Source of the DNA: Nocardiopsis sp. FIRDI 009
GTDB taxonomy: Bacteria; Actinomycetota; Actinomycetes; Streptosporangiales; Streptosporangiaceae
DNA: 64,000 bases
Direction of reading: 5' to 3'
NCBI RefSeq assembly: GCF_003386285.1
Contig: NZ_QPNC01000028.1
Location: forward strand, 1 to 64,000
Shown: positions 32,892-53,374 of the stretch, piece by piece
Layout of the letters: every line of letters begins with the position of its first letter
Numbering within the stretch: position 1 is the stretch's first letter
Notes under the pieces: model-generated
What the model was told of the DNA's origin: nothing
Databases searched by the model: none
Seen by the model: the letters and a program-made list of their open reading frames with translations, nothing else
Translations under genes and position numbers: made by a program

Positions 32892-33100
32892 GAAACCTCC
32901 GTGGGGGCGGCGGTGGCCGGTCGGACACACCGCTACCCACGGTGACCCCGTGAAGGTGGAACCCGATACCCCGTACGCGATCAGTCTGCGGTGTCCGGGA
33001 GGAGAGGACCCTCTGACCGCGGAGGGACGTTCGGGGGCTGTTCCCGGCCGCTTTCGTCTCCTCGACCAGGGGACGGGACCGCGACGGCAGCCACACGACG

Positions 33101-33135
33101 ATGGCCACGCACGCTCACCCGTCGTGCGTGGCCAT
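33101..33135 (-). terminator. Terminator of the mechanosensitive channel gene
   Basis: A perfect 13-bp stem (ATGGCCACGCACG at 33101-33113 against 33123-33135) with a 9-base loop lies 35 bases after the channel gene stop on the minus strand. Confidence 0.75.
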
Positions 33136-33170
33136 CACGTCGCGGCCCCTCGCCGTGGCGAGCGGCCCCG

Positions 33171-34121
33171 TCAGGCGGGGGTGCCGTCGCCGGTGCGCAT
33201 CCAGACGGTGCGCTGGGGGAACGGGATGTCGATGCCCGCGGCGTCGAGGGATTCCTTGACGCGACGGCGCAGTTCACGGGTCACGGCCCACTGTTCGAGC
33301 GGAGCGGTCTTGACGGCGAGGCGCACGACGACGCCGTCCGCGTCCAGGGACTGCACACCCCAGATCGACGGGTCCTCCAGGAGGATGCCCTCGAACTGCG
33401 GGTCCTGGCGCATCTCCCGGCCGGTCTTCTCCAGGGTGTCGTAGACCGTCTCCAGGTTGGACTCGTAGGACACGGAGACGTCGAGGACGGCGCGGGCCCA
33501 ATCCTGACTGTCGTTGCGCACCCGCTGGATCTCGCCGTTGCGGATGTGCCACAGGCCGCCGTTGATGTCGCGGACCTGGGTGAGCCGCAGACCCACGCTC
33601 TCGACCGTGCCGACCGCCTCGCCGAGGTCGACGACGTCGCCGACGCCGTACTGGTCCTCGATCATGATGAGCATGCCGGCCAGGTAGTCGGCGACCAGGC
33701 TCTGGGCGCCGAAGCCGATCGCCAGGCCGACCACGCCCGCGCTGGCCAGCAGGGGGCCGAGGGCGATGCCGAACTGGTCGAGGATCATCGCCAGGGCGGT
33801 CCCCACGATGACGATGGTCGTGAAGCTGCTGAGCACCGAGCCGATGGTGCGGGCCCGCTGCTGGCGCCTCTCGCTGGCCCGGGACGCGTCACGCTGGAGG
33901 ACCGCGGGTCCCCGGGCGGAGCGGTTCGGCGCGTTCTCCCGTTCGGAGGGCTGCAGGAGGCGTTCCACGGCGCGGGAGATGGCGCGCCTGGCCACCGCCC
34001 GAACGATCAGCGCGCCGAGGACGATGAGGAGGATTCGCAGGGGGACGCCGACCAGCAGATCGAGGTTGTCCTGAAACCATCCGGGGACGGCGGCCGCCTG
34101 CTCGACGGCTTCACTGTTCAC
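33171..34121 (-). CDS. MscS family mechanosensitive ion channel
   Basis: This 316-residue membrane protein of the small-conductance mechanosensitive channel family opens under membrane tension to release solutes on osmotic downshift. A first helix (LLVGVPLRILLIVLGALIV), a linker, and two further helices (SVLSSFTTIVIVGTALAMIL; GPLLASAGVVGLAIGFGAQ) lead into the pore helix and the beta domain (DQYGVGDVVDLGEAVGTVE). The C-terminal alpha/beta domain ends at residue 316. The GTG at 34121 has GGAG 7 bases upstream, which favours it over the longer form. The BCCT osmolyte transporter lies 11 kb away; no direct link is implied. Confidence 0.93.
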   Translation of the reverse strand: MNSEAVEQAAAVPGWFQDNLDLLVGVPLRILLIVLGALIVRAVARRAISRAVERLLQPSERENAPNRSARGPAVLQRDASRASERRQQRARTIGSVLSSFTTIVIVGTALAMILDQFGIALGPLLASAGVVGLAIGFGAQSLVADYLAGMLIMIEDQYGVGDVVDLGEAVGTVESVGLRLTQVRDINGGLWHIRNGEIQRVRNDSQDWARAVLDVSVSYESNLETVYDTLEKTGREMRQDPQFEGILLEDPSIWGVQSLDADGVVVRLAVKTAPLEQWAVTRELRRRVKESLDAAGIDIPFPQRTVWMRTGDGTPA

Positions 34122-34193
34122 TATGGTGCTCCACTTGCTGGATGGACATACGCGAAGATCGACGTAGAACGTACTTGCGGCTCTCCGCACAGG

Positions 34194-34289
34194 TCAAAGT
34201 CGGTGCGGTGGATCTCCACCGAGCAGGTGCGGGTTGCGGGTCTGGAGGGAGGCCGCGCGCAGGTGTTCGCGGCGTGCACGGGCATACAC
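34194..34289 (-). pseudogene. Truncated copy of the 112-residue protein gene at 50.5 kb
   Basis: A 31-codon frame reads VYARARREHLRAASLQTRN, then PHLLGGDPP, and stops. The section REHLRAASLQTRNPHL aligns with REHLRAASVQARYPHL in the gene at 50474-50812, then diverges before the conserved WFGESTQ part. It has no ribosome site and is too short to be the same protein. I read it as the remains of a second copy, on the same strand, at the opposite end of the BREX block. Confidence 0.6.
34248..34272. repeat. 25-base direct repeat, left copy
   Basis: GGAGGCCGCGCGCAGGTGTT followed by CGCGG matches 50618-50642 at 24 of 25 positions, in the same orientation. It is part of a longer, weaker similarity extending about 30 bases to lower coordinates. 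Confidence 0.75.
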
Positions 34290-34376
34290 CCCAACACGCG
34301 CATGCCGGTCCTCACAGTGGCCCCACGGAGACGAAACGGTGAGAACGGAGCGGCGCAGCGCCTTCGTCCAAGGAGT

Positions 34377-35903
34377 TCACTCGCCCGGGTCCTGCTCCAT
34401 CTCCGCGAGCATATGGATGGTGAGCTCCTTGGGCAGAGCACGGGTGGCGTCCGTGTGGTGGCGCAATCCCGCCGTCTGACCCACATCGGCACCGGGCATG
34501 TCGATCAACCAGCGAAGGGTTTCGTCGTCCAGACGATCGGGATCCGCGAGGTCCCGGAGCAGTGCCCGGCCCCCGGCTTCCCGGTAGTCACCGGGAAGGG
34601 GGATGCCCTCTCTGACGGCATCCCACACGATTCGCTCGCAGATCGCGCCCCAACGGCCCTGTCCCCACCAGTGGCGGGTGTAGCCGGTCGCGCCTCCCAC
34701 GCTGAGCAGACGCAGGGTCGGCTCCGGGCCAAGGAGATCCTCGTCCATACGTTTCCAGAAGCGCAGCTGCTCGGACACCGTCCGCCGTACCTCCGTCCAG
34801 CCCTCTCCGAACAGCTCCGAGATCTTCCGCCCGTCCGGCAACGCCCACTCCGGATCTGTCAAACACGCTTCGATGGCCTCCCAGTCGGTTCCCTCGATCT
34901 CGTCGAGGTGGGGAAGGATCGCCTTGGTCACGGCGATGTTGACGCGTGCCATGAGGACGTCGTCGGGCAGGTGCCAATCCTCGACGGCGGTGTCGTTGCG
35001 CCAGCACCATGAGGCGATACCGAGCGCTGCCGCGCTCGGAACACAGTCCGGCAAGACATCTCGGCCGACGAAACAGCAGACGAACTGGTCATAGGTGGAC
35101 ATGCCCTTCTCCGCGTCCAGCCTGGCACCGAGTTCTTCCACCGACAGTCCGCTGTAGGAAGCCGCTGGTTCGAGGATCCACCTTTGGTAAGCCACGGAGA
35201 CGAGATCGGAGGCGCTCACGGTACTGTCCTCCGATGCCTTGACGCGCAGGGGGTCCAGGAGACCCAGTGCGCCGAGTCGTTCGGCGACCTCACGCTGAGC
35301 CTCTTCCGCACCCTGGCCGATGTCCACCGTCACGATGTCGTCGAGCACTTCGACGAACTCGAAGGGAGGCTCTCCGACGCCTTCGGAGAACTCGTTGGAG
35401 GAGAACTGGATCTGGTGTGCCCACACGTCGTAGGTGACGCAGAGGACAGTGCCGGAACGAAGCAGGTGGGCCATGATAACGGGCCCGTGACCGGGCTCGT
35501 GGTACCCCTCCTGTAGGTGGTCCCAGAGCTCCCAGCCACCCTCCAACAGCGGCCTGACCAGAGTCTCGAGTTCTTCGAAGTACCTCTGCCACTCCTCGTC
35601 GGAGGGTCCGGAAGCCCCGTTGAGCGCATCGACGGCGGCATGGACGCCCCGCCGGTACTCGGGTTCGCTCCAGTTCCCCAGGAGGTCGAGGATTCTCCGG
35701 GAGTCCTCCTCCCGTTTCCTCCGGTCAGTCTCCTCAACGTGTTTCCGGAGTCGCCAGGACGCGTGCGCGACCGGATCCTCGGGTTCTCCGGCCGCGCGTC
35801 GTCGATCCAGCTCACGCAGGTCGGCGATGAGGTCCGCCTTGCGCGCGTAGACGGAACGTACGGGGCGGTCATAGGCCAGTTTCCGCAGCTGGACCAACGT
35901 CAT
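34377..35903 (-). CDS. Unrecognised protein, last gene of the BREX operon
   Basis: This 508-residue protein starts 37 bases after the brxHI stop. The N-terminus, MTLVQLRKLAYDRPVRSVY then ARKADLIADLRELDRR, resembles the small SAP/Rho-N fold that binds nucleic acid. A charged helix follows (LRKHVEETDRRKREEDSRRIL). The middle and C-terminal parts contain acidic and Trp-rich stretches (ASWCWRNDTAVEDWHLPDD; YTRHWWGQGRWGAI) with no motif I can name. No membrane segment is seen. Base composition is somewhat lower in G+C than brxHI and mscS on either side. The ATG at 35903 was chosen by N-terminal fit; its ribosome site is weak. Position suggests an accessory BREX factor, but this is inference only. 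Confidence 0.75.
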   Translation of the reverse strand: MTLVQLRKLAYDRPVRSVYARKADLIADLRELDRRRAAGEPEDPVAHASWRLRKHVEETDRRKREEDSRRILDLLGNWSEPEYRRGVHAAVDALNGASGPSDEEWQRYFEELETLVRPLLEGGWELWDHLQEGYHEPGHGPVIMAHLLRSGTVLCVTYDVWAHQIQFSSNEFSEGVGEPPFEFVEVLDDIVTVDIGQGAEEAQREVAERLGALGLLDPLRVKASEDSTVSASDLVSVAYQRWILEPAASYSGLSVEELGARLDAEKGMSTYDQFVCCFVGRDVLPDCVPSAAALGIASWCWRNDTAVEDWHLPDDVLMARVNIAVTKAILPHLDEIEGTDWEAIEACLTDPEWALPDGRKISELFGEGWTEVRRTVSEQLRFWKRMDEDLLGPEPTLRLLSVGGATGYTRHWWGQGRWGAICERIVWDAVREGIPLPGDYREAGGRALLRDLADPDRLDDETLRWLIDMPGADVGQTAGLRHHTDATRALPKELTIHMLAEMEQDPGE

Positions 35904-35940
35904 CCGCTCATAGCCATCGGAGGGAGGTCCGGGGTAACCG

Positions 35941-38103
35941 TCACTGGACAATGAAACGGGTGCTTTCCTTGAGGAGGGTCCGCGCTCCGTCGACGTCGGC
36001 GAGGCGGGCTGACAGGGTGCGTTCGGCCAGGTGCCTGGGCAACGCAGCGCTGAACTTGAGCCCGTCCAGGGCTCGCGTGGCCACCGTGGGCAGGGTGACA
36101 CTCTCCCGGGCGGCCTGTTTGGCCTCGGCCCAGGTGCGCGGTTCCAGGTCGGCGTTCAGGCGCAGGCAGGCGTCGTTGGGTTGCTGTTTGGGGTCGGCGG
36201 CGTTTCCCAGACTGGCGGCCAGGGTGAGGTTGGCCCGGGCTCCGGCCCAGGTCCACCAGCGCAGGTCGCCGCCTTCGGACCGCACGATCACCGATCCCCC
36301 GGGGTGTACGAGATCGATGTGCTCGTCGCGCGCCTTGGCCAGGGCGTTGACCGCCCTGCGGGTGAGCCGCACCCGCGGATCGGTCCCCAGGAGCACCTCG
36401 CGCACCGCGCGAGTGAGGTGGAAGAAGGAGCCCAGGTGGCCGCCTGAGTCCCACTTGGCCTTCCCGCCGCCGCCCTCGACGGGTTCCACGAAACAGCGTT
36501 GCCGCCGCCAGTCCACCCCGGTCACCACCCAGGTCCGCCCGGCCAACAGCAGTCGGCGCGGGCCGGTCCGTTCCTCGTCGGCGGCCAGAAGCGCCGGGTC
36601 CACCCGACCGATCTCGGTGCGCCCGTTCAGCGCGGTGAACTGCGGCGGCGCGGTGAAGACACTGGTCAGTTCCATGAAATGCCGGTGACCGAAGCGCTTC
36701 TCGGCCTCGGGGCCGATCATCATCAACCCGCCGTCCAGGTCGATGAACCCCTCCCGGATCAGGTGGGCGGCGATCGGCTCGCCCTGGTGGAAGGGTTCGA
36801 GGTCGCCCCACCATTCGGGCCAGAGCCGCGCGCCCACCTCGGGCTCCTGCAGGCACAGGGCCAGGAGCTGCTGGGCGACGATGTGGCGCGGTTCGGGCGT
36901 GGGGACGACGGGCTCCACCCAGTGCTGTCCCCACAGGTGCAGGAGACCGGCGGCGTCCAGGAGCCCTGCCTTGTCGACGGCCAGGAACAGGCAGTTGCGG
37001 ATGCTTCCCTGACGCCGCCCGGTGCGGCCGATGCGCTGGAGGAAGGAGGCGACGGTGCCGGGGGCGTTGATCTGGATGACCCGGTCCAGGTCCCCGACGT
37101 CGATTCCCAGTTCCAGGGTGCTGGTGGCGACGATGACGCAGTCGCGGGCCTCCCCGAAGGCGTGTTCGGCGCGGCGGCGCTCGTCCAGGGACAGGGAGGC
37201 GTGCGACAGGAAGGTGGTCACACCCAGCTCCCGCAGCGCGTGGCCGAGCTCCTCCACGTACTGGCGCGAGTCGCAGAACACCAGGCGCTTCTCCCCCCGG
37301 TGCAGGGAGGCGATGACCTTGGCGGCGTTGGTCAGGGAGCCGACGTAGTCGAGTTCGACGTCACCGGGCGGCGGCTCGTCGGGCACGTGGCCGGGCTTGG
37401 GCAGGTGCACCCCGGGTGCGACCACCCTGCCCGGTCTGCGACCCGCCATCGACCCCTGGAGCCAGGAGAGCAGGTCGTCGGGGTTGCCCACGGTGGCGGA
37501 CAGGCCCACCCGCTGGATGGGGCGACCGGCCACCCGGCCGAGGCGCTCCAGCACGGCGAGCAGGTGCCACCCGCGGTCGTCCCCGGCGAAGGCGTGCACC
37601 TCGTCCACGACGATGGCGTGCAGGTTCTTGAAGAACTCCCGGTGGTCGACCTTGACGCTCACCAGCATGGACTCCAGGGACTCCGGGGTGGTGAGCAGGA
37701 TGTCGGGCCGACGCCGCAGGATGCGTCGGCGCCCGGCCGTGGTGACGTCCCCGTGCCAGAGCTCGGCGGTGCGCCCCATCCACCCGGCGTACGCCTGGAC
37801 CCGGGGAAGCAGGTTGTTGAGCAGCGCCTTGATGGGGCACACGTACAGCAGGGACAGTCCGCCCCCCGACCGCCCGGCCATGGTCGTGAGCAGCGGGAAC
37901 AGGGCCGCCTCGGTCTTTCCTCCGGCGGTGGGCGCGAGCAGGACGGCGTCGTCGCCGTCGATCAGCGGGGCCAGGGCCTCGCGCTGGAGCGGCCGGAGCC
38001 CGGGCCAGCCGAGGGTGTTGACGACGTGGTGGGCGAGGGTGGGGTGAAGCAGGTCGAGGCTGCTCGGTCCCGGTCCACCGGTGTCCTCGGGGGCTCCGCT
38101 CAC
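35941..38103 (-). CDS. brxHI: BREX helicase BrxHI (Lhr-like)
   Basis: This 720-residue superfamily 2 helicase is of the type found in BREX type 2 loci. Walker A is APTAGGKT (57-64), the DEVH box is at 167-170 (VVDEVHAF), motif III is GLSATVG, and motif VI is QRIGRTGRRQGS. The C-terminal half carries an Lhr-like winged-helix and associated region (LLLAGRTWVVTGVDW). It is thought to act in phage DNA recognition or processing together with the other BREX proteins; the exact step is not established. Its GTG overlaps the brxD stop by four bases, giving tight coupling. Confidence 0.88.
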   Translation of the reverse strand: MSGAPEDTGGPGPSSLDLLHPTLAHHVVNTLGWPGLRPLQREALAPLIDGDDAVLLAPTAGGKTEAALFPLLTTMAGRSGGGLSLLYVCPIKALLNNLLPRVQAYAGWMGRTAELWHGDVTTAGRRRILRRRPDILLTTPESLESMLVSVKVDHREFFKNLHAIVVDEVHAFAGDDRGWHLLAVLERLGRVAGRPIQRVGLSATVGNPDDLLSWLQGSMAGRRPGRVVAPGVHLPKPGHVPDEPPPGDVELDYVGSLTNAAKVIASLHRGEKRLVFCDSRQYVEELGHALRELGVTTFLSHASLSLDERRRAEHAFGEARDCVIVATSTLELGIDVGDLDRVIQINAPGTVASFLQRIGRTGRRQGSIRNCLFLAVDKAGLLDAAGLLHLWGQHWVEPVVPTPEPRHIVAQQLLALCLQEPEVGARLWPEWWGDLEPFHQGEPIAAHLIREGFIDLDGGLMMIGPEAEKRFGHRHFMELTSVFTAPPQFTALNGRTEIGRVDPALLAADEERTGPRRLLLAGRTWVVTGVDWRRQRCFVEPVEGGGGKAKWDSGGHLGSFFHLTRAVREVLLGTDPRVRLTRRAVNALAKARDEHIDLVHPGGSVIVRSEGGDLRWWTWAGARANLTLAASLGNAADPKQQPNDACLRLNADLEPRTWAEAKQAARESVTLPTVATRALDGLKFSAALPRHLAERTLSARLADVDGARTLLKESTRFIVQ

Positions 38104-39425
38104 AGGTCCAGTTCCACCTCGTCGGCACTGGCGGCGCGCTGCACATGGGACCCGCGTTCGACCTCGGTGAGTTCGTGTCCGCCGACGGTCAGGTGGTAGT
38201 GCGCCCGGGGGTCGAAGTCGGGGTTCTGGTCGACGCGGTCCATCACGTCCACGAGCTTGCGCAGGAACAGCCGGGGCGCGATGCCGACCCGACCGCCCAG
38301 CTCCCCGGCGACGGCTTCGGCGAAGGCGAGCAGGTAGCCGTCGTCGACTCTGTCGCGCACCCGCTGGGGGGCGTCGGCGCCGTCGGCGTACAGCTCCCGG
38401 ACGGCCACGCCCAGCTCGTGCAGCTTGGCCAGGTCGAAGCCGGTCAGACGGATCTGGCTGGCGTAGAGGTTGTCGTGGGCCGGGTCCGGCAGGAAGTCGG
38501 TGTGCAGGCGCTGGGCCAGGGGGGCCAGGCGCTGGACCCCCTGGGGGCCGTCGAAGAAGGCGGGGGTGCCGGTGATGACGAGGTACAGGCCGGGGAACTG
38601 CCTGTTGGCGATCTCGTCCAGGAGCTGGCGCAGCGCGTTGAGGCCCTTCTCCCGGGTGTCGGTGCGGGCGCGCTGGAGGGTCTCCAGCTCGTCCAGGACC
38701 ACGAGGAGCCCCGGATGCCCGCAGTCGCGCAGGAGGACGAGCAGCCCCTTGAGCGCGGCCAGGGCCCCGAAGTGGTCGAGGTCGCCCTTGATCCCGGCGT
38801 AGCGCTTGGCCGCGGACGCGACGTTGGGCTGTCCGCCGAGCCAGGCGATGAGCGCCTCGGCGATGGCCTGTTCGCCCTCGGACTGTGCCCGGTGGTAGCC
38901 GCGCAGGGCCGCGGCGAACCCGGGGTTGGCGGCGGCGACCTCGGACAGCCGCCGCTCCAGCAGCTCCAGGACGGCGGCGTCGAGCGCCTCCTCGTCGTCC
39001 TCGGCCACCTCGCCGGTGGCCAGGACGTCCTCCTCCAGGGCGTAGACCCAGTTGTCGACGATCTCGCGCAGGGCGCTGGGCGGCTGGGTGGCGGTGGTGA
39101 GGCGCTCCGTCAGTCGCCGGTAGACGGTCTCCAGCCGGTGCAGCGGGGTCTCGGTCTCGGAGATCTGGATCTCGGTGACGGCGAAGTTGGCGCGTTTGGC
39201 GCGCTCACCGAGCCAGCGCACGAAGAAGGTCTTGCCGGACCCGTACTCGCCCCGGACCGCCTTGAACTCGGCGCCCCCGCCGCTGACCGAACCCAGTTCC
39301 CGGTCCAGGGCGTGGGTGAAGCGGTCCAGGCCCACGGCGAACAGGTCGAGGCCGCTGTGCGGGACGGTCCCGCGGCGCAGGGCTCCGACGACGTCGTCGC
39401 GACGGGCGGCGCTGACGGTGGTCAC
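38100..39425 (-). CDS. brxD: BREX ATP-binding protein BrxD
   Basis: This 441-residue P-loop ATPase matches BrxD (DUF2791) of BREX type 2. Walker A is GEYGSGKT (59-66) in the family context FKAVRGEYGSGKTFFVRWL, and Walker B lies near residue 240 (LLVVLDELETLQRAR). The C-terminal part has PRLFLRKLVDVMDRVDQNPD. The GTG at 39425 follows GAAGGGAG; a longer frame upstream overlaps pglZ and has no family resemblance. It lies directly between pglZ and brxHI with no real gap, so all belong to one transcript. Confidence 0.9.
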   Translation of the reverse strand: MTTVSAARRDDVVGALRRGTVPHSGLDLFAVGLDRFTHALDRELGSVSGGGAEFKAVRGEYGSGKTFFVRWLGERAKRANFAVTEIQISETETPLHRLETVYRRLTERLTTATQPPSALREIVDNWVYALEEDVLATGEVAEDDEEALDAAVLELLERRLSEVAAANPGFAAALRGYHRAQSEGEQAIAEALIAWLGGQPNVASAAKRYAGIKGDLDHFGALAALKGLLVLLRDCGHPGLLVVLDELETLQRARTDTREKGLNALRQLLDEIANRQFPGLYLVITGTPAFFDGPQGVQRLAPLAQRLHTDFLPDPAHDNLYASQIRLTGFDLAKLHELGVAVRELYADGADAPQRVRDRVDDGYLLAFAEAVAGELGGRVGIAPRLFLRKLVDVMDRVDQNPDFDPRAHYHLTVGGHELTEVERGSHVQRAASADEVELDL

Positions 39426-39427
39426 GG

Positions 39428-42361
39428 TCAGCTCCCTTCGGTGAGGAACTGCTGGCGGAGCAGGGAGGTGTTGAGTTCCGCGCTGCGGTCGCCGTCGGTC
39501 AGGGTCAGGACCGGGTAGGACTCGACGTTGAGGACCTTGCTGACCATCTTGAGAAAGCGCACGGCCCGGTGCGGGGCCTCGGACTTGCCCGCGGCGCGGG
39601 CGGCGGCTCCGACCGGCAGGCGGGGGTGGGTGCCGCCCGCCGCGCCGAGGGCGTCGATGACCGCGCCGATCTCCCGGGCGGACGGCGCCTTGGCCACACG
39701 CGCCAGGCTGGCCTCGAACACGGCCGTCGCGGTCACCCTGGCGCCGAGGCTGTCGGGGGCCAGCTCCGCCACCTCGATCAGGGCGGGGGTCTGGTCCGGG
39801 ACGGACTTCGAGCGCGACCGTCCGCCGCCCCCGCTCTTCCGTCGACCGCCCGCCGTGTCCCGGCCCGGTGCGGACGACCCCGCACCGGATCGCACTCCCC
39901 GGGCGGGGGCGGAGCCCGTGCCGGTCTCGGTGGCGGGGGCGGTGCCCTCCAGCGGTTGGGACCACCAGGCGGGTTCGAGCTGGGCGGACGAGAGCAGGGA
40001 CCATCCCTTGGGCGCCCGGTCGAGCACGGGGATGAACGCCAGGACGGGGATGACCATCTCGGCGGCGGAGAACCCGCCGTGGTAGCCCTCCTTGCGGTCG
40101 GTGTAGCGGATGTCCTCGCGGTAGGGCACCACGAGGCTGCCGTCACCGACGAGCACCCGGTCGCCGGTGGCGAGGACCTCGCCCTCCCCGGGCTCCCCGG
40201 TGCGGTACCGGGCGGACTCGCCCGCCTGGGTCTTGCGGGCCTCCCTGCGGTCCCACACGTGGCCGTGGTCGGAGGTGAGCAGGACGGGCCGTCCGACGCG
40301 GGCGGCGGCGTCGAGGAGGGAGGTGAGCGCGCCGATCTGCTCCGGCCGCCAGGTGGGGTCGTTGCCCTCCCGGCCCTTGGCCAGGGCGTCGTCGATGGTG
40401 TTGAGCACGACCCCGACCACGGTGCCGGTGTCCTCCAGGTGTGCCTGAACCCGTGTGGGCAGGTGCTGTCCGGCCCCGGCCTCCAGGTCGCGCTGGTGGT
40501 AGAGCACGGCGTCGCGGCGGCCGAAGGCCGGGCTCGCCCACAGGTCGCGGAACCCCTTGCGTTCGGTGTCCTGTTTTCCGGTGGTGAGGGTGCCGGTGAG
40601 CAGCGAGGCCCGGGAGCAGGTGGTCGTGGAGGGGACCGTGGCCAGGGCGCCCGCCCGGGCCGGATCGCCGTCCGCGTTCTGGCGGCCGATCTCGACGAGA
40701 CGGCCGCGCGCGTTGACGTGTTCGGCGAGCTGGACGGCCACCTCGACGCTCATCCCGTCCAGGACGATGACCAGGGGCGCGTTCCCGGTGGCCAGGGGAC
40801 GGGCGAAGTGGTCGAGCAGGTTCTCCGCGCGCGGCTGGTCGTCGGTGGGCGCGTGTCCGCTGTTCCACCGGTTGACGACGGTGGCGAACTCGGCGTCGAC
40901 GAGGGCCCGCCAGGCGCGGACCCGGTGGTAGAGGGTGGCCAGGGCCTGGTCGAGGACGGGCACCTCGGTGTGGTGGTGCCAGACGACGGACGCGGCCCGG
41001 TCCACCCATCCGGTGTCGCGCACGTGGGTGTGGACCCACTCCCGGGTGGTGGTGGGCGCGGACGCGCCCAGGGGGTGCGCGGCGGTGCCGGTGGCCAGGC
41101 GGCGCAGGAGGCGGACCGCGTTGACGGCGACCCGACCGGAGCTGCTGTCGGGGTCGTGGCGGCGGTGTTCGGACAGCCTGCTCAGCGCCTCCTCCACCTC
41201 GCGCAGGTCCTGCGGAAGCGGCAGGGACTCGCTGACGGGCGCGTCGCCGTCGCCGAGGGCGACCCCGATGGCACGGCCCAGGTCGGCCATGCGACTGTGC
41301 AGTCCGGCGTCGAGCAGTCCGCTGGTCTCGGCGACGGAGGCGGCGTCGAGCTGGTGGAGGAGTTCCTCGGCCCGGCGGATGGTCTCGTCGGCGTGGACTG
41401 GGTCGGGCAGGTCGAGTTGGCGTAGGAGCGCCGCGATGCACGCCTTGCCGAACTCGTCCAGGTCCCGCGGGGTGGGTTGGCTCAGTCCGAAGTAGCGTTC
41501 CTGGGCCCGGATGAGGGCGTTGTGGGCGACCCTGCCGCGCTGCTCCTCGCCGAACTGGTCGTCGCGTGCGGCCCGGGCCAGCTCGCCCAGGGCCAGCCCG
41601 ATGGGGATGGCGTCCAGGGCGTGGCCGCGGTCCAGGAGGGTGAACAGCACCCGGGGGACGGCTCCCAGGGCCTCCACCACGGCGGCGCGCAGCTCGTCGC
41701 GTTCGTCCTCGCCCAGGCGGGTGAACGCGGCGACGGCGTGGGGGTCGCGGGTCCACTCCAGGAGGGCGGCGCTGTCGACCTGTTCGCCGGGTTCGCGGCC
41801 GAAGCGCACGGACACCGCGATGGACAGGGCCTGTTCGAGTTTGAGCACGCCGGTGCCCAGGCGTAGCTGTCGGGTGGCGCGGATGCCGCGCAGGGTGTGG
41901 GCGAGCCAGCTCCACCGGCCCGAGTACAGGCGCGGGTCGATCCCGGTGACCTTGAGGTCGGTGGCGAGCAGTTCCCAGTCGTTGAGACGGGTGACGTCCT
42001 CGCCGAGGAACCTGCCCAGTAGTGCCTCGCCGAAGTCGGCGGGGTCGATCGGGGTGAGCACGACGAGGTAGTCGACGTCCTCGCCGAGCAGGCTGAGTTC
42101 GCGCACGATGGCCAGGACGCTGTCCGCACCCGCGACGCGCACGGTCAGGTCCGTGTCACCGTAGCGTACGGCGAGGGTGTCGGGGCCCTCCCAGTGCGGG
42201 TCGGCGGACAGCGCGAGGGCGCGGGCCGCGGAGGGCCGGTGGCCCTTGTCGACCCGGCGCTGTTCGGCCTCCAGGGCGCGCTGGAGGGCGCTGGTGACGG
42301 CCTCCTCGTTGACCCGTCCGAGCGCGGTGGGGGCGGGGTCGGCGCCTCGGGTGGCGGTCAC
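39428..42361 (-). CDS. pglZ: BREX type 2 phosphatase-fold protein PglZ
   Basis: This 977-residue protein has an alkaline-phosphatase-type PglZ domain in its C-terminal half. The metal-binding residues are seen in [12 protein letters not shown] (about 532), the [15 protein letters not shown] segment, TSDHGHVWD (about 697) and the [15 protein letters not shown] motif (about 760). The N-terminal half is helical and specific to Pgl proteins. PglZ is a defining BREX component whose phosphatase or nuclease role is still debated. Its ATG overlaps the pglY stop (ATGA). A basic, low-complexity stretch ([16 protein letters not shown]) lies near residue 840. Confidence 0.93.
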
Positions 42362-45300
42362 TCGGCCTCCCGGATGGTGATCTGGATCGGCCTGTCCTCG
42401 GGGATGCCGAGGTCGCGGCGGAGCTTGGCGACGGTGGCGGCCACGTCGTCGTGGGAGTCGACCCGTACCCAGGAGGTGGTGTCCTGCGGTTGGGGCCCCG
42501 GACCGGTGCCGGTTCCGTTACCCGTGTTCTCGGGTGTCCTGGTCCCGCCGCCCGAGCCCGCATCCGGATTGGGGGCAGGGGTCTTGCGCACGAGCAGGGC
42601 GACGGCCTCGCTGTTGGCGGCGCTGAGCGCGGTGGCCAGACGCTTGCTGCTCTCGTTGTGGCGCGCGGTCTCCTGGAGCCGGGCGAGGATTCCGGCGGCC
42701 TGGTCGGACTGTCCACCGCCTTCGCGGGCCAGGGGTTCGAGGGCCTCCAGCAGCTCCCACTGGGCGGCGTCCAGAGCACTGGCCAGGTTTCCGGCGCCGG
42801 TCACGGCCATCTTGTACACACCGGCCTCATCGGGCAGGTCGGCCTGGCCGAGGGCGGTGACGAGCGCGGTGTCGTCCGCCAGCCCGACCAGGCGGCCGAG
42901 GAGATCGTCGCACGCGCGGGCGGTGCGCAGGCGGGGCGCGTCGTCGTCCAGTCCGAGCACCTGGGCGTGCCGGGTGAGCTGTCCCACCAGGTGTTCGGTG
43001 CCCGACTGCAGGCGGCGGGCCTGTTCCTTGAGCTGTTCGGCCAGCCGCTGCACGGCCCGGGCGCTGCGCAGGGGTTGGCGGGTGAGCCCGAAGATCCGTT
43101 CGGCGCGTTCGTTGGCCCGTTCGAAGTCCTCCTCGGAGGGCAGTTCCTGGCGGCGCAGCACGATGTCGCCGGCGAGCTGGCCGAAGGTGGCGCCGGTGTA
43201 GCGCTTGCCGCCCCGGATCCAGGCGCGGTCGCTCTGGACGGCGTAGACCTGCACGATGAGGTCGACGATGTCCTCGGGCAGGCCCTGACCGTCCTCGCGG
43301 GAGCGGATCCACTCCTTGAGCTTGCCGACGTTGACGTCGGTGGTGGTGGCCTGGTCGATGCTGGCGTACCGGTCGATCCTGCGCACCCAGTCGTCGCGGA
43401 GCACGAACACCTCGGTGACGGTGGCGATGTGCAGGGGGTCGGCGATGCGCCGCAGCACGGGCAGGTCGGTCTTGGGCGGCTCGTACCGGTTGAGCCTGTC
43501 GGCCTTGGCGGCCTCGACGGCGGCGAGCACGGTGCTGAGCTCGCTGCGGCGGACCGCGGCCCTGCCCGTGGGGCTGGACAGGTCCGGGTGCTCCGGGTAC
43601 AGGTGGTCCAGCAGTTTGAAGGTGACGCGCTCCAGCGCGGCCGGGAACTGACTGCCCGCCTCCAGCGGGATGGACAGCGACGACGGCAGCGGCTCGATGT
43701 GCGGATCGGCGGGGGCGCCGTAGTCGCCGCTGTCGGGGGCGGCCTCGACGAGCCCGTAGGCGCCGCGCAGCAGGGAGCGGATCTGGTTGGTGAGCTGGTT
43801 GCGCTGGTTGTCGAGCTGGGCGCGGGCCTCTCGGCGGTCGTCGCTGCTCCAGTCGGGCGCCTTCTCCTCCACGATGTCGGGCTGGAGCAGGTACTCCATC
43901 ATGAGGATGCGGCGGGCGTCCTCGATCCGGTTCGGGGACAGGAAGGTGGGCAGCCACACCAGCCCGGCGACGGGTTCGGTGAACTCCTGACGCAGCGCCT
44001 CCACCCGGCGCCGGTCCTCGGTGGGGTTGTGGTCGCCCTCGTCGAAGGGGTAGTCGATGACCACCCGCACGGCGTTGGCCGCCATCGGCTGGAAGTCCTC
44101 GCGGTCCATGTCCTCGGGCGAGCGCACGTTGCCGAAGACGATCTCGACCGTGCGCTGGGTGCCGCGCCACACGACGGTGGTGCGTCCGGCGCCCTCGTCC
44201 AGTCCCAGTTCCTCCCAGAGCAGGCGCTTGAACAGGTGGCGCAGGGCGTGGTCGTTGGCGGCCGTGTAGGCGCTGCGCATGAGGGACTCGGTGTCCACGC
44301 GCAGCAGGTTGAGCGAGACGGTGGGGTTGGTGGACTGGGCGCCGACACGCACCTCGCCGAACTGGGCGGCCATGTCCTTGAAGAACTGGGTGACGGCGGC
44401 GACGTCCTGGCCGGTGCGGCGGGCCTTGACGATGCCCTGGTTGAGGGCGATGGCGCGCCCGGCGGTCAGGTCCTTCAGGGCGGGCACGTTGGGGGTGAGC
44501 GCGCTCAGCAGCAGGGTCTTGACGAGCAGGTCGTCGCGGCGGAACGGGGAGCGCACGTCCAGCCCGGCCGTGTCGGCCTCGGTGAGCCGGTGCTTGTCCA
44601 GCAGCCAGGGGCGCACCCGGTTGCGATAGAAGGCGCTGATCTTGGTGTACTCGGCGCTGAGCTGGTCCTTGAAGGGGCGGGACTCGCCCTCGATGAGGAC
44701 GTCGAAGACCGCGCCGAGCGGCACCATCTGCCCCACCGGCAGGGTGGAGCGGTGGTTGACCAGTAGTTGCAGCAGGAGCTTGAGCGCGCTCCGCTGGCGC
44801 TGCAGCGCCCCGGACAGGTCCACCATGACGTGCAGCAGGGCGGGGCTGAACGGGTAGAGGTTGCGGAAGTCCTCCCAGGTGCTGGTGTCGGCGCCGCCGT
44901 CGCTGTCCAGGAGGGTGTCGCGCACCTCGGCGCGGGTGTTGCGCATCCGCTCGAAGGCGGCGTCGATCTCGGCCGCCGCAGCGTCGTCGCGCGGCTTGAT
45001 GAGGCGGTGGCGCACCACCTCGGTGAGGTTGGCGTCGGCGAGCTTGATGTGGCCGAAGCGGCCGTCCCAGTAGCTGATGGTCTGGGAGATGCCCTCGGTG
45101 CCGCCGCCGAGGCCGACCAGGTCGCGCAGGTCGCGCTGGCGGGGCACGAGGCTGATGATGGGCGCGGGCCGGTGGCTGTGCGAGGACTCGACGAGCTTGG
45201 CGATCTTCTGGATCTCGCTGTTGATGCGCGCCTCGTCGCCGATGAAGGCGGTGAAGCGCAGGATCAGCTCGTCCAGGAGCAGGACGACGGCGTCGCAGCC

Positions 45301-46161
45301 CAGGTGCTCCTTGGCGTGGCGGCTGATGACCGACAGGCCCTCGTCGATGCTGAGGTAGGCGTCCCCGGAGTCGCCGACGCTGGCGGCGTAGCGCTTGAAC
45401 GGCCCGCCGAGCAGGGCGCTGACCAGTTCCTCGCGCAGGGTGCGCTCGGCGGGGTCGGCGCTCTCGGGGTGGGCGGCGAACGCCCGGTCGAGGGTGTCGG
45501 CGGTCCAGGCGGCGGGGCCGCCGAAGGCTCCCCACACGTCGGCGCCGCCGCTGCCCTGGCCGTCGCCGGAGCCGGACTCGCGGGCGGGGAGCTGGTCGAT
45601 GAAGGCGTCGTCCCCGAGGCGGGAGCGCAGTTCACGGGCGTCGGCCAGCAGCCCGTCGGCGCGGTAGACGGCCGGGACGGGGGCGTCGGGGTGGTCGGCG
45701 CGGACCTGGCGCACGTATCCGCCGAGGATGTTGGCCTCGATGGACACGGTCTCCTCAACCAGGTGGGCCTTGACCTCGATGAACTTCTTGTCGGCCAGCC
45801 AGGTGTCGTGCTTGGCGAGGATGTCGGCCAGGCCGGGCTTGCTGCGGGCGTCGGGGTGGTGGTCGAGGATCGCGGAGAGCACGGCGAGGAAGTGGCTCTT
45901 ACCGGCGCCGAAGGAGCCGTGCAGGTAGGCGGCCTGGGACTTGCCGTCGGCGACGGAGGAGCGGATGGTCTCCAGCGCCTGGTCGAAGCACTCGGCGAGC
46001 TGCGGGGTGACCACGTACTCGGCGATGGCCTGGGCCTGGCGGGTGGTGGTGCTCTCGGTGAGCTTGACGACCAGATCGCCGTCCTGGACGGCCTCGGGGA
46101 TGTCGATCAGGTCGCTGATGACGCGGCCGTTGCCGCCCGGGCCGGAGGGAGGGGTCGTCAT
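42358..46161 (-). CDS. pglY: BREX type 2 ATPase PglY
   Basis: This large P-loop ATPase of 1267 residues is the type 2 counterpart of BrxC. Its N-terminal pattern [20 protein letters not shown] is the family opening. Walker A is [11 protein letters not shown] (about 82-92) and Walker B is [12 protein letters not shown] (about 290-300). The rest is a long helical scaffold; near residue 1200 it becomes low-complexity ([17 protein letters not shown]) before a C-terminal [14 protein letters not shown] segment. An ATG at 46161 was chosen as nearest to the family start; an ATG at 46185 is possible and neither has a strong ribosome site. It is coupled to pglZ by overlap, and 420 bases separate it from pglX. 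Confidence 0.93.
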
Positions 46162-46581
46162 CGCCAGGGTGCGCCTTTCTGCCATCGGGTCGGGTCAGGG
46201 ATCGGGGTGCGGTGAGCGGGAACGCCAGTGGAGGAGGCCGCGTGATCGGACCCCGGGATGCCCTGTGCGGTGGGGACATCGGGGTGGTTGTGGTACGCGG
46301 TCCCCTTGTGTTCTATCAGGGGTTTCCAGCCTATGCCCTGGCTGTGGGGGTTCCACACCGACGAAGGTCCCAGGTCGGACACGCACGGGGCGGCTGGGGT
46401 GTGGTTCCGGTAACGGGGAACGCCCATGTCACGCGGATGGTGTGCGGTGCTGGCGCGGTGTCGGTGGATCGGTGGGGCGTCCCCGGGGGCCGTTCGGGGT
46501 GCCCGGCGGACGGTGGCCGAGTGTGGCCGGATGCGGCCCCGGGCCGGAGCGGTTGTCCGGCCCGGGGTGAGGTAGTGGAGG
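46162..46581. other. 420-base gap between pglX and pglY
   Basis: No gene is visible. This is the only substantial gap in the BREX block, so a second promoter for pglYZ-brxD-brxHI could lie here. On the minus strand, the part from about 46270 to 46330 is the AT-richest and would be the place to look, but I cannot identify clear promoter boxes. Confidence 0.35.
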
Positions 46582-49500
46582 TCAGGACTTCCTGCGCCGA
46601 CCCCGGGTGGGGGCCGGGGGCCGCCAGCCGGTCATCTCCGAGTCGGTGATGCCGGTGGTGTTGCGCAGGTCGGTCAGGTCCTCCCGGACGTGGTCGGCGG
46701 GGGTGTCGCCGTACTCGTCGGTCTCGGTGTGCCACTGCTCGACCCAGGGCAGCAGTTCGAGGAGTCCGGCCATGAGGGGCACCATCCTGTCGCGGGTGTC
46801 CTCGTCGTTGCCCCAGCCGAGTTCGTCGCGGCGTTCGTGGGCGAGGGTGGCCAGGGCGTCGGCCTGCTGGGCGTGGTCCCACCCGGCCCAGCCGAGCAGG
46901 AGGGTGGGATCGGTGTCGGTCTCGGCACCCGGGTAGGAGATGAACCGCTCCTTGGGGACGTCGAGCTTGCCCCGGTTGGACCAGTACTCGTTCCGTCGGA
47001 AGTCCGAGGACTTGTACTTGGGCGGGACGGGGATGTCGAGGCGCTTCTCCTCCTCACCCTCGGCGAGGTCGGCGTTGAGCTTGTCCTCCTGGCGCTGGAG
47101 GTCCCACACGTGTTCCCAGTCGGCGCGCTTGCGCATGCCGGATTCCTTGTAGCGCAGGGCCGCGAGGTAGGGCACGTGCTCGGTCCTGGTGATCTCCTCG
47201 ATGACCTGTCCGAAGTCCTTGTCGGAGTCGTAGAGCGCGGCGACCTCGGCGGCCTCGGGGAACAGGTCGCGGACCCGGTTGGCCAGGGCCCGGACGGAGA
47301 GCGGGCGGGTGCGCTCGTCGCCGTAGTCGTCGGTGGTGAACCAGAGGCGGCGGTCCTCGCACTTGTCGAGCAGCCAGGACTTGAGGGCGGCCTTCTGCTT
47401 CTTCTCCCAGGGCTCGGACTGCCAGCGGCGCTTGTACTCGGGGCGTTCGAGGAGGTTGATGTTCTTGTCGGACTCGATGAGTTCGATCCGCTTGGCGACG
47501 ACCTGCTTGTAGGCGTCAGGCCAGTGCGAGGGGATTTCGGTGATGGGCGTGGAGCCGTGCCGGTTGAACCACTCGGTGGAGGCTTCGCCCGCGGCCATCT
47601 TGCGCGCGAGCACGATCTCGAAGGCCCGCTCCCCCAGGTTGATCTTGGGGACGTCGGCGGTGTCGGGGATCGTCAGCTCGGCGAGTTGGGCGTCGGAGAT
47701 GAGGTCGTAGCGGTGGTAGACGTCCCAGTCGAGTTCCTCCTGGAGAGCGATCATCCGCTGACGGGTGGCGACGTACTCGGCGTGGGATTCCTTGAGGAGT
47801 TCTGCGGTCGGGGTGGCCGACTCCACGACTGCGGAAGGTTCGAGAGAGGAGAGCTTCTGCGCGAGAGCGTCAAGCTCCTTGGAGCGGACCAGGGGAAGCT
47901 TCTGGGGAAGCGGGAAGTCCTTGAGCTTGGTCCCGGTGAACTCGTAGAACCTCTCCCACTCTTGAGACTTAAATCCCTCATTTACACCTTGCGATCCCTT
48001 GTCATGGGACACTTGCTTGAGCCAGAAGCACGCCGCCGATGAGTTCAGCACCCCCAGCAACTCTAGGTGCTGATCCTCCGTAGCTCCCTCCGGCAGCTTG
48101 ATCACCGGGGCCGAACGATTGAAGACCTTCCCACCCCGGTCAAGCACAAAGTGGTTATGCGTAGCCACGAAAGCAAAGGGAATCGAAAGGCGGGACCTAT
48201 ACCTCTTCGGAAAGAACATGCTGTGATCCCACCAGCGAAGCCCCCGACCCTCAGGGGTCTCCCCAAAGTCGATCCGCCTGCACAACACCCCACGATTCCG
48301 CCAATAAAATTTCTCTTCACCAAAAGAGGCATCGCGAGGAAATCCGTTTTCATCGTAGGGAAACATCGTTGCAATCGGATGCGAGATCAGATAGTCTCGA
48401 ACGCCATCCCCCAAAACAACCGGGACACTATAAGGAGAAAGTCCTCTGGTGTTCATCCCTGAAGCCGGACCATAGAACGCGTCGTCCAACCCGGTATGGG
48501 TGGTCCGACCAATCGCATCGAGGTGATCTGCAAGGAGCCCTGGACTCGACTCTATAGATTCCATGAGACCCCCAGCCCCACCTCCAGTGAGATTCCACGG
48601 GTAATCCTTGAATGCATCCCAAGGAAGGTCTCCGACACTCACCCAGTCGGACTCAGATTCCCCAGTAATCCTAAGCTGCTCCTCAATCGCCGACCACACA
48701 AGGCCATCAGCAGGAATCTCAGGCTGCTCGGGTTCACCACGGATCCCAAGAACGGCACGCACCGTTCCCGAATGCGGAGGCATCATGTTTCGACCAATAA
48801 GAATCACCGTTGGCGTCCCATGACCCGGAATATAAGCTCCGGATGTGTCAATCACCTGAGTCAAGCGTACCCTGTTGCGAAAGAATTCCTCAATCAGCTT
48901 CTTCCCAAACTCGCGCTTCATGAAAGAGTTCGCAGTGATCTGACCGACAAAGCCAGCGCCGATCTTGTCACCACCCGCGCGTTTGGCCAAATTGAAGAAA
49001 CGCTCTGCAAACGGCACAGAGAGCGCATAGGTACCAGAACACGTAGAATAACGACCTCGGTAGTTCTGGTTCTCCTGCTTGTCTTTAACCGTGATGTAGG
49101 GCGGGTTTCCCACTACAACGTGGTAACTCACCGCACTCAGGAGACCGAACTCCTGACCGTACTCCGCCACGTCCTCGGTCGAATAGCGGTGAACAGTGCT
49201 CTCGCTAAACAGATCTTCCTGACGTTGAGGCGCACCACGACCGTGAATCAGGGAGTCACCTGTGGCCACAACGATGGGCCACTCGGGGTTACTCGCGCTC
49301 AGGGTGGTGATGCCACCTTCCTTCATCGCGGCGATGAGGAGACGGAACCGCGCGATCGCCACCGCGTACGGGTTCTTGTCGACCCCATGAACGCTGCGCA
49401 GGCTGCGATTGATCAGCTCCCAGTCAGACGTACCAGGTTCGGCCTCGCGCCACTTGTTGAGCAAGCGGTGAAAGGCACCCAGCAGGAAGTGCCCTGACCC

Positions 49501-50301
49501 ACAGGTCGGGTCGATCAGACGGAAGCCCTTGTTGTCTTCCTGGTAGATCCGGTTGCCGTCGAGTCCGAACTCCTCGATCGCGGGTTCCAGCGTGTAGTCG
49601 AGGATGAACTCCTCAACGAACTCCGGTGTCTGGAGGAGCGCGTAGGTCTTCCGCGTCGCTTCGGACAGGTCCTGGTACAGGTCACCGAGGAAGCGGGTGT
49701 TCCACTCGGGATCAGTGAAGTCGTGGACGAGGTGGCCGTCCTCCCCCACCTCACGCCAGAACTCTATGAGCGCCCTCGCCGCCTGGTGAGATGGCGTGAT
49801 CGACCACATCGGGTTGTGCTTCTTGTCGAACAGCCCGGCCATCACCGAGGACACGCTCATCTGCTCGAAAGCGTGCTCCAACCAGTCCCGGTCGGTGCGC
49901 TCGGGAGCATCCGGGTTCTCGCTCCGGCCTTGGAGGACCCAGGCTTCCTTCAACTCCTGGGCGACGCTGTACCGGTCGCGTTCGTCCTTCGGCCCCGTGA
50001 TGAAGGGCTGCTCCAAGAGCCCGTTGTCCTCGCAGAAGCGGAGGAACACCGTGGATAGCACCCATGCCACCGCAGCCTGGGTGATCTGCCCTTCACGCCA
50101 CTCACCCTCGGTGGTCTCGGTCCGCTCGGCGTCTCGGGCTCGCTGGTACTCGCGCTTCAGGTAGGCGTCGAAGGTCTCCGGTTGCCCGTTCGGACCGGTG
50201 CCCTTGATCGCGGTGGGATCCTCGCCGCGCTCCCGAAGGTCCGTCTCCAGCAGACGCACCTGCTTCTGCAAGTCCTTCAGTAGCTGCGCATGATCGACCA
50301 C
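46582..50301 (-). CDS. pglX: BREX type 2 adenine methyltransferase PglX
   Basis: This 1239-residue DNA N6-adenine methyltransferase marks host DNA and, with the other proteins, allows BREX to tell host from phage. The SAM motif I is DPTCGSGHFLLGAFH (about 262-276), and the catalytic motif IV is VVGNPPYITVK (about 394-404). The N-terminus VDHAQLLKDLQKQVRLLETD matches PglX. The start at 50301 (GTG with GGAG 5 bases upstream) was preferred over an ATG at 50316. Residues about 400-790, which include the target recognition region, are encoded by DNA of much lower G+C than either end. It is the first gene of the BREX block. Confidence 0.94.
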   Translation of the reverse strand: MVDHAQLLKDLQKQVRLLETDLRERGEDPTAIKGTGPNGQPETFDAYLKREYQRARDAERTETTEGEWREGQITQAAVAWVLSTVFLRFCEDNGLLEQPFITGPKDERDRYSVAQELKEAWVLQGRSENPDAPERTDRDWLEHAFEQMSVSSVMAGLFDKKHNPMWSITPSHQAARALIEFWREVGEDGHLVHDFTDPEWNTRFLGDLYQDLSEATRKTYALLQTPEFVEEFILDYTLEPAIEEFGLDGNRIYQEDNKGFRLIDPTCGSGHFLLGAFHRLLNKWREAEPGTSDWELINRSLRSVHGVDKNPYAVAIARFRLLIAAMKEGGITTLSASNPEWPIVVATGDSLIHGRGAPQRQEDLFSESTVHRYSTEDVAEYGQEFGLLSAVSYHVVVGNPPYITVKDKQENQNYRGRYSTCSGTYALSVPFAERFFNLAKRAGGDKIGAGFVGQITANSFMKREFGKKLIEEFFRNRVRLTQVIDTSGAYIPGHGTPTVILIGRNMMPPHSGTVRAVLGIRGEPEQPEIPADGLVWSAIEEQLRITGESESDWVSVGDLPWDAFKDYPWNLTGGGAGGLMESIESSPGLLADHLDAIGRTTHTGLDDAFYGPASGMNTRGLSPYSVPVVLGDGVRDYLISHPIATMFPYDENGFPRDASFGEEKFYWRNRGVLCRRIDFGETPEGRGLRWWDHSMFFPKRYRSRLSIPFAFVATHNHFVLDRGGKVFNRSAPVIKLPEGATEDQHLELLGVLNSSAACFWLKQVSHDKGSQGVNEGFKSQEWERFYEFTGTKLKDFPLPQKLPLVRSKELDALAQKLSSLEPSAVVESATPTAELLKESHAEYVATRQRMIALQEELDWDVYHRYDLISDAQLAELTIPDTADVPKINLGERAFEIVLARKMAAGEASTEWFNRHGSTPITEIPSHWPDAYKQVVAKRIELIESDKNINLLERPEYKRRWQSEPWEKKQKAALKSWLLDKCEDRRLWFTTDDYGDERTRPLSVRALANRVRDLFPEAAEVAALYDSDKDFGQVIEEITRTEHVPYLAALRYKESGMRKRADWEHVWDLQRQEDKLNADLAEGEEEKRLDIPVPPKYKSSDFRRNEYWSNRGKLDVPKERFISYPGAETDTDPTLLLGWAGWDHAQQADALATLAHERRDELGWGNDEDTRDRMVPLMAGLLELLPWVEQWHTETDEYGDTPADHVREDLTDLRNTTGITDSEMTGWRPPAPTRGRRRKS
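47930..49110 (-). other. AT-rich mosaic segment inside pglX
   Basis: Within pglX the sequence from about 49110 to 47930 has far lower G+C and codon use unlike the rest of the window. For example, the 60 bases at 48301-48360 contain 26 G or C (43 percent by my count), and codons such as AAA, ATT and TTT are common. The segment begins just after the NPPY motif and covers the specificity region, while both flanks look native. Confidence 0.8.
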
Positions 50302-50322
50302 GAGGGCTCCAAACACGACGAG

Positions 50323-50957: not shown

Positions 50958-51521
50958 CTACGGCACGTCCTTCCAGCGGCTACCGGTGAGGTCGTAGGCG
51001 AGGAAGAACCACACCTGCCGGTGACTGGTGACGCCGTTGTCTCCCCAGTCGGTGGCCAGGGCGTCGACGAGCGCCAGTCCGCGTCCGGATTCGGCGTCGA
51101 AGCTGAGCCCGTCAGGGTCAGCGGTCAGGTGGTGGTCGTCCGTCTTCCCACGAGTGGGGGCGCGCCTGGCCCCCTGGTCGCGGCAGGTGAGGTGGAGGCC
51201 GTCACGGCGACGGACACACCGCAGGGTGTAGAACCCGAACCGCTCCCCCGACTTCGAGTGGTTCAGCGCGTTGTTCGCCAACTCCGACCCGAGCAGGGTG
51301 AACACATAGCGGTAGTCCTCGTCCCGCTCGGCGGCGCAGGCGTTGAGGAAGGCGCGGACCAGAGGCATGTACTGGGGCGAGGAGCCGAAGTCGTAGCGGC
51401 GGGTGCGGTAGTGGGGGCGACCAGACCGGTGGTTGAAGTAGTGGCGGCAGCGGGGCGGGACGAGCTCGCTGAGGGAGACGGTGATCTCCGGCAGCACGGG
51501 CATGGGGGCAGTTGCGGGCAT
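50958..51521 (-). CDS. ATP-binding regulator (anti-sigma/HATPase-like)
   Basis: This 187-residue protein has a histidine-kinase-type ATP-binding fold used by actinomycete anti-sigma and regulatory proteins. The N-box is ELANNALNHSKSG, and the later motif is ESGRGLALVDALATDWG. It lacks a His phosphorylation domain. The ATG at 51521 was chosen because AAGGAG lies 10 bases upstream and the preceding frame is not protein-like. It is divergent from the XRE regulator. In actinomycetes such proteins commonly sit beside XRE-DUF5753 and DUF397 genes; their function in that trio is not settled. Confidence 0.85.
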   Translation of the reverse strand: MPATAPMPVLPEITVSLSELVPPRCRHYFNHRSGRPHYRTRRYDFGSSPQYMPLVRAFLNACAAERDEDYRYVFTLLGSELANNALNHSKSGERFGFYTLRCVRRRDGLHLTCRDQGARRAPTRGKTDDHHLTADPDGLSFDAESGRGLALVDALATDWGDNGVTSHRQVWFFLAYDLTGSRWKDVP

Positions 51522-51719
51522 GACGAACAGACTCCTTGCGTGCGTGGAGCGGACGGGGGTTCGGTGTGCCCGCAGGATCAACCTTCGCGTTTCCCGAACA
51601 CCGGGAAGGGGCACTGCGTAGCCTGACCAGCACGAACGAGGTTGACGCTCAGTGAGACGCCGATCACTGACTACGCACACCATCATCACTTGCGCATCCA
51701 CTACTGTCAACGAGAAAAA

Positions 51720-51749
51720 GTGGTTTCCACAAAAAATCTCAGCTAGGCT
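51720..51749. promoter_or_regulatory. Candidate operator and -10 of the XRE regulator
   Basis: GTGGTTTCCAC (51720-51730) is a dyad with a 3-base centre in an unusually AT-rich divergent region. TAGGCT (51744-51749), 6 bases before the XRE ATG, fits an actinomycete -10 and would give a leaderless transcript. The dyad is a candidate binding site for the XRE protein. Confidence 0.4.
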
Positions 51750-51755
51750 CACCCC

Positions 51756-53074: not shown

Positions 53075-53374
53075 GTGCCCGCCACCACCCAGGTACGCAC
53101 CTACACCGTCCGCGAGGGCCTGCTCGACGAGTGGGTCCAGCGCTGGAAGGAGGAGATCGTCCCCCTGCGGCTGAAGTTCGGCTTCTCCCTCGGCGGTGCC
53201 TGGATCGACCGAGAACGCCGCCACTTCATCTGGGAGATCTCCTACGACGGCCCCGAGACGTTCACCGAGCGCAACCGCCGGTACTGGGACTCCCCCGAAC
53301 GCGAGGCCATGGACCTGGATCCGAAGGACTACCTGGTCTCCACCGACGTCCGCGAGGTCACCCGGGTCTACTGA
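53075..53374 (+). CDS. NIPSNAP family protein
   Basis: This 99-residue protein has the NIPSNAP ferredoxin-like fold: QVRTYTVREGLLDEWVQRW at the N-terminus, FGFSLGGAWIDRERRHFIWE in the middle, and a final YLVSTDVREVTRVY. The bacterial family has no defined role. The GTG start follows GGAAAGG. Its last 7 bases overlap the end of the convergent STAND-WD40 gene. Confidence 0.85.
   Translation: MPATTQVRTYTVREGLLDEWVQRWKEEIVPLRLKFGFSLGGAWIDRERRHFIWEISYDGPETFTERNRRYWDSPEREAMDLDPKDYLVSTDVREVTRVY

Follow-up and report, generated by a model that had tools for sequence, protein, structure and literature searches.

A candidate defence gene behind brxHI in Nocardiopsis type 2 BREX loci belongs to an unnamed actinobacterial protein family

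Results

The gene directly behind brxHI in the type 2 BREX operon of Nocardiopsis sp. FIRDI 009 may well be mobile cargo carried by actinobacterial defence islands; rather than a dedicated part of BREX, it most plausibly encodes a self-contained effector against viruses or plasmids. The original prediction had offered two choices: the gene could be a new accessory factor of BREX, or a second defence gene that travels with the operon. The second fits better, because homologues elsewhere have flanks without BREX genes and genomes with BREX-2 at the base rate, because the position behind brxHI is shared with unrelated defence genes, and because homologues adjoin Wadjet, DISARM and Avs genes; in favour of the first, the gene is found only with BREX within Nocardiopsis. 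It looks like a swappable gene, not a fixed part of BREX.

A conserved gene behind the BREX operon

The window, the whole stretch of 64,000 nucleotides that was analysed, contains clear type 2 BREX genes on the minus strand, as recognized by PADLOC, Pfam and NCBIfam: pglX (46582–50316; NF033451, 1736 bits), pglY/brxC (42358–46185; PADLOC BrxC, 1356 bits), type 2 pglZ (39428–42361; NF033446, 693 bits), brxD (38100–39428; PADLOC BrxD and NCBIfam NF033438) and brxHI (35941–38103; PADLOC BrxHI, 1031 bits). The start of brxD is approximate: the listed open reading frame (ORF) was over-extended to 40004, and the PADLOC/NCBIfam match starts at ORF residue 195–198. The pglW gene lies just beyond the window (contig positions 64282–68517), with other genes, including a Gabija-like pair, between it and pglX. 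The idea that the candidate substitutes for a missing PglW was dropped, as pglW is present.

Several further genes were noted in the island. The Gabija-like pair (59916–63976) consists by Pfam of an OLD/TOPRIM protein (708 aa) and a UvrD helicase (669 aa), and N. lucentensis (G225) has a pair 91–94% identical to it. An AAA_13 protein (57080–59758, 892-aa ORF) is encoded on the opposite strand, and an nSTAND1-WD40 protein of 1183 aa at 53368–56919. Just upstream of pglX, HATPase (anti-sigma-like) and XRE/DUF5753 genes stand back to back (50958–52616); this pair was found again in other Nocardiopsis BREX loci, where its XRE member has diverged further. Nocardiopsis also has a second type 2 BREX lineage that is more divergent (L051, L052 and L053, in G058, G123 and G037), its pglZ being about 30% identical to that of the window; in G058 and G123, pglW adjoins pglX directly with no cargo between.

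The candidate ORF was present as predicted, running on the minus strand, as brxHI does, from an ATG at 35903 to a stop at 34377 (34377–35903, 508 codons), with 37 nt between the brxHI stop and the ATG. An MscS-like channel gene outside the system (33171–34190, minus strand; Pfam MS_channel matches) bounds the slot on its 3' side. An in-frame upstream extension (35904–35951, minus strand) starts at a TTG at 35951, which overlaps the brxHI stop and is kept in all three gene-carrying Nocardiopsis species; in the 11 Nocardiopsis loci without the candidate gene, brxHI ends in a different tail. Given this overlap with brxHI, the shared reading frame and the conservation in three species, the TTG is a likely alternative start, and M-SSDGYPGPPSDGYER-MTL may be the true N-terminus. 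If the TTG is used, translation of the candidate gene may be coupled to that of brxHI. Promoter and terminator scans of positions 33100–36400 found none, and such scans say little for an actinomycete.

Homologues occupy the same place in N. quinghaiensis (G065; 67–68% identity to the candidate protein) and N. lucentensis (64%). Nucleotide changes are concentrated at third codon positions (119/86/208 by position), and dN is well below dS, with dN/dS about 0.25. Because of these same-place homologues, the third-position bias and the low dN, we consider the candidate a real gene.

Distribution of the gene and its association with BREX

A genome contig search with the single candidate protein returned nothing, and the same search with an alignment as the query returned 14 loci; counts from the large searches are lower bounds, few candidates per genome having been scored. 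The candidate gene was found in 3 of 40 Nocardiopsis genomes, and a BREX-2 PglZ in 14. All carriers fell among the BREX-2 genomes (3/14 vs 0/26; hypergeometric p = 0.037), and all three copies lie directly behind brxHI on the same strand, adjoining core genes in three species as a BREX auxiliary gene would. A type 2 core gene is expected in most type 2 loci and to match a BREX model; 11 of the 14 Nocardiopsis BREX-2 loci are without the candidate, and it matched 0 families among the BREX models of PADLOC and NCBIfam.

Outside Nocardiopsis, no BREX genes were found in the fetched flanks of homologues, save that one locus (L016) showed, at its edge, a weak resemblance to a helicase, and BREX-2 was present in 4 of 15 homologue-bearing genomes vs 64 of 296 Streptomyces genomes, which is not raised. 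The expected co-occurrence with BREX holds within Nocardiopsis and was not seen elsewhere; the finding that would have told against a BREX link, homologues spread widely and never near BREX, applies by half, to the fetched flanks of the non-Nocardiopsis members and not to the copies behind brxHI. No relatives were found in viral collections by IMG/VR scans or phage tblastn.

The slot behind brxHI and defence neighbours in other genera

The position behind brxHI in Nocardiopsis is a variable slot. GmrSD proteins occupy it at +49 in two loci (L055, with Pfam GmrSD_N at E 3.7e-28, and L059, 84% identical). Judged from sequence only, other slots hold McrB-like (L053, L061), STAND-like AAA (L058), SMC-like (L051, L056) and caspase-helicase (L057) proteins. 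Some of the non-candidate slot genes lie on the other strand or slightly farther off, and some are unrelated genes. These contents resemble the auxiliary effectors described in BREX loci (PMC12839542) and BrxU, an auxiliary or backup effector (PMC8565348).

Homologues in other genera also have defence genes as neighbours: Wadjet I JetA, B, C and D on Rhodococcus pRHL1, Wadjet II JetB2/JetC2 in Glycomyces, Wadjet III JetA3/JetC3 in Lentzea (the homologue is followed in the same orientation by JetA3, which starts after 350 nt), DISARM DrmD in Actinacidiphila, and Avs2 in S. tropicalis, where the adjoining copy is truncated. A defence gene was the largest neighbour in 5 of 14 homologue loci vs 0 of 10 random Streptomyces arm regions (one-sided Fisher 0.047), scored as the largest coding-like ORF near the gene with PADLOC bits above 300 (best control, 58 bits), where the threshold was chosen after the scores had been seen, the control is small and of a single genus, and L024 and L025, whose largest ORF was not scanned, count as negative. 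Other homologues have no recognized defence neighbour (for example L008, L017, L019 and L020). Overall, the usual setting of the homologues is a defence island of another kind and not a BREX locus.

Allele replacement in a near-identical locus

The window and the N. lucentensis locus are collinear, and in 300-nt steps their identity is mostly 88–97% from pglY through brxHI, with 84% in the lowest step, and 95–96% in the MscS-like gene behind the slot; the MscS-like neighbour in N. lucentensis is 93% identical. Inside the candidate gene, identity drops to 66–76%, and its dS is 1.05 vs 0.13–0.25 in pglY, pglZ and brxHI. These values indicate that the candidate allele was replaced within an otherwise near-identical locus.

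The other steep drop lies in PglX, where residues ~560–720 are 20–45% identical between the two species and most of the remainder 85–100%, with further dips (58–75%) at 361–400, 481–560 and 761–800; between N. quinghaiensis and the window the same residues are 18–58% identical. This stretch is most likely the recognition domain, and its divergence would be a specificity swap between species. The two steepest drops in the locus are thus the candidate gene and the PglX recognition domain; as a single case, the comparison cannot show that the two divergences are linked. If our reading is true, the allele swap is a sign that the candidate gene and PglX specificity are both subject to an arms race.

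A conserved all-alpha core under varying N-termini

In an AlphaFold2 model of the candidate (17-sequence alignment; mean pLDDT 80, pTM 0.75), helices at the N-terminus are followed by a small middle domain of alpha/beta type and then by an all-alpha core at the C-terminus. Residues 1–40 (35784–35903, minus strand) form the helical pair in which a SAP/Rho-N-like, possibly nucleic acid-binding N-terminus had been predicted. The resemblance is plausible by eye and from the predicted helix pair, which is shared with N. quinghaiensis and Glycomyces (L015); against it, no SAP or Rho_N profile matched in Pfam at E≤1, the N. lucentensis copy is without the pair, and model confidence is low at residues 1–20. 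The middle domain (residues 100–225 by AlphaFold2 secondary structure; 35229–35606, minus strand) diverges fast, identity falling to about 40% at residues 161–200.

The core (residues 226–475; 34479–35228, minus strand) is conserved across the alignments and represents a new superfamily. A model of a 292-aa stand-alone core protein (L093) reached pLDDT 84 and pTM 0.84. Neither Foldseek with the full candidate model against PDB and viral models, nor Foldseek with the minimal model against solved folds, nor PDB sequence searches with the family gave a significant match. Searches of Pfam, NCBIfam, PHROGs and PADLOC with the gene and its relatives returned chance-level matches only (e.g. mTOR_dom, E 0.28; DUF6927, E 0.018 in two short relatives). 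The candidate and its homologues belong to a family without a name in these four libraries.

Within the core, residues 301–326 (34926–35003, minus strand) carry the signature W-R-N-x-T-x-V-E-x2-H-x3-D-x2-M-x-R-x-N-x-A-x-T, a candidate active site. W301, R302, E308, H311, M318, R320, T326, D340, L355 and G358 are invariant in the family alignment (A4), and conservation is 90% or higher at N303, V307, D315, N322 and P356. The candidate also fits the broader pattern W-R-N/E ... V-E-x2-H ... D-x2-M-x-R-x-N ... T, then L-P/A-x-G (alignments A4 and A5), and by sequence comparison the core (WRNxTxVExxHxxxDxxMxRxN) defines a wider actinobacterial superfamily. It includes 410-aa Streptomyces proteins and stand-alone proteins of 260–290 aa (L085–L087, L093), members of 260–410 aa occurring on Streptomyces plasmids and in chromosome arms, and weaker relatives come from the family to which the window's genome belongs. 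An HD-hydrolase reading of the core, based on what we took to be a resemblance to nucleotidases, was dropped, as no HD pair is conserved.

Over this one core each clade has its own kind of N-terminus. That of Nocardiopsis and Glycomyces is SAP-like; Pseudonocardiaceae and Rhodococcus have a C-x7-C ... C-x3-H motif and, after it, a region resembling a winged helix (weak Pfam matches); and Streptomycetaceae have a treble-clef-like zinc motif. The tree also groups the family members by clade. Since the copies from the three Nocardiopsis species group together (98/99) and their sister is Glycomyces (93/100), a single entry of the gene into the Nocardiopsis lineage is the simplest reading.

Core-superfamily genes were observed near both ends of two Streptomyces chromosomes (L028/L031 in G613, where one of the copies is broken, and L076/L090 in G775), which suggests terminal inverted repeats. 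The stand-alone L093 gene (G972) lies directly behind a TraA/MobF-like helicase-relaxase ORF.

Discussion

We favour a carried effector gene. Its place in Nocardiopsis is the variable slot behind brxHI, where the BREX message probably serves for its translation too, by coupling. Invader nucleic acid, or a damaged or modified state of DNA, would be recognized by the N-terminal module, whether SAP-like, treble-clef or a zinc motif with a winged helix; the middle domain would relay or regulate; and the all-alpha core, with the invariant R302, E308, H311, R320 and T326 and the near-invariant N303, D315 and N322, would be an effector that is enzymatic or binds a ligand, and whose target is probably nucleic acid. 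Such an effector could stop infection, or back up BREX when a phage blocks it. Going further, the core is possibly, in our tentative view, an undescribed catalytic effector fold of stand-alone actinobacterial defence proteins that carry interchangeable recognition modules and insert beside BREX, Wadjet, DISARM and other systems. Neither a family nor a fold match supports an enzyme, and the motif conservation could reflect a structural or ligand-binding role.

It is rather unlikely that the candidate is a true type 2 BREX accessory factor in Nocardiopsis, for instance a specificity or regulatory partner working with PglX. Its constant position directly behind brxHI, the conserved overlapping TTG start, the presence of BREX-2 in 3/3 carriers, and its divergence together with PglX residues ~560–720 where pglY, pglZ, brxD and brxHI do not diverge would all suit such a partner; however, 11 of 14 loci manage without it, homologues elsewhere are without BREX in their fetched flanks and in most genomes, and the co-divergence rests on one acquisition, while PglX recognition domains may diverge independently.

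We also judge it unlikely that the family serves plasmid or mobile-element maintenance and sits in defence islands as insertion hot spots, with no defence function. Superfamily members beside plasmid relaxase or replication genes would fit such a role: relatives occur on linear plasmids of Streptomyces in the vicinity of DnaB, DciA-like and relaxase genes, and there are matches near both ends of two Streptomyces chromosomes. Against it, members of the family in different genera adjoin BREX and Wadjet of types I, II and III, and the gene is under purifying selection in Nocardiopsis chromosomal contigs.

Least probable is that the core is a divergent HEPN-like RNase and the candidate an abortive-infection RNase, which would be one form of effector: the domain is all-alpha, an R-N whose R stands at a helix end is followed by an invariant H just past a short helix, and the auxiliary effectors described for BREX include HEPN RNases (PMC12839542), but the R-to-H spacing is 7–8 residues and not 4–6, the motif has additional positions (E, D, M, R, N and T), no HEPN family was matched in Pfam, and Foldseek, which gave no significant match to any fold, gave none to HEPN.

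If the effector reading is true, an unnamed effector family would be added to actinobacterial immunity, the 3' end of the Nocardiopsis BREX operon would be a cargo slot and a direct place to seek further defence genes, and the invariant R302, E308, H311 and R320 would make the candidate activity directly testable.

Among known systems, the GmrSD/BrxU-type auxiliary effectors (PMC8565348, PMC12839542) share the placement beside the BREX core, and GmrSD occupies the same slot in two Nocardiopsis. The candidate differs from them in having no ParB/HNH or other known nuclease domain and in belonging to a family found mostly outside BREX; as for type IV restriction (GmrSD/McrBC) more widely, Pfam detected neither a ParB/HNH nor an McrB AAA domain in it. 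PglW is likewise a large component of the same locus with DNA-binding modules, but it is present separately, and the candidate has no kinase, NERD or iSTAND match in Pfam. Homologues adjoin Wadjet (JetABCD) loci of types I, II and III in three genera, whereas the candidate matches no JetA, B, C or D model in PADLOC and most homologues are without a Wadjet neighbour. With HEPN RNases the candidate shares an all-alpha core and an invariant R-N ... H, but 8 residues separate R302 from H311 (7 in shorter members), as against R-x4-6-H, and the other invariant residues differ.
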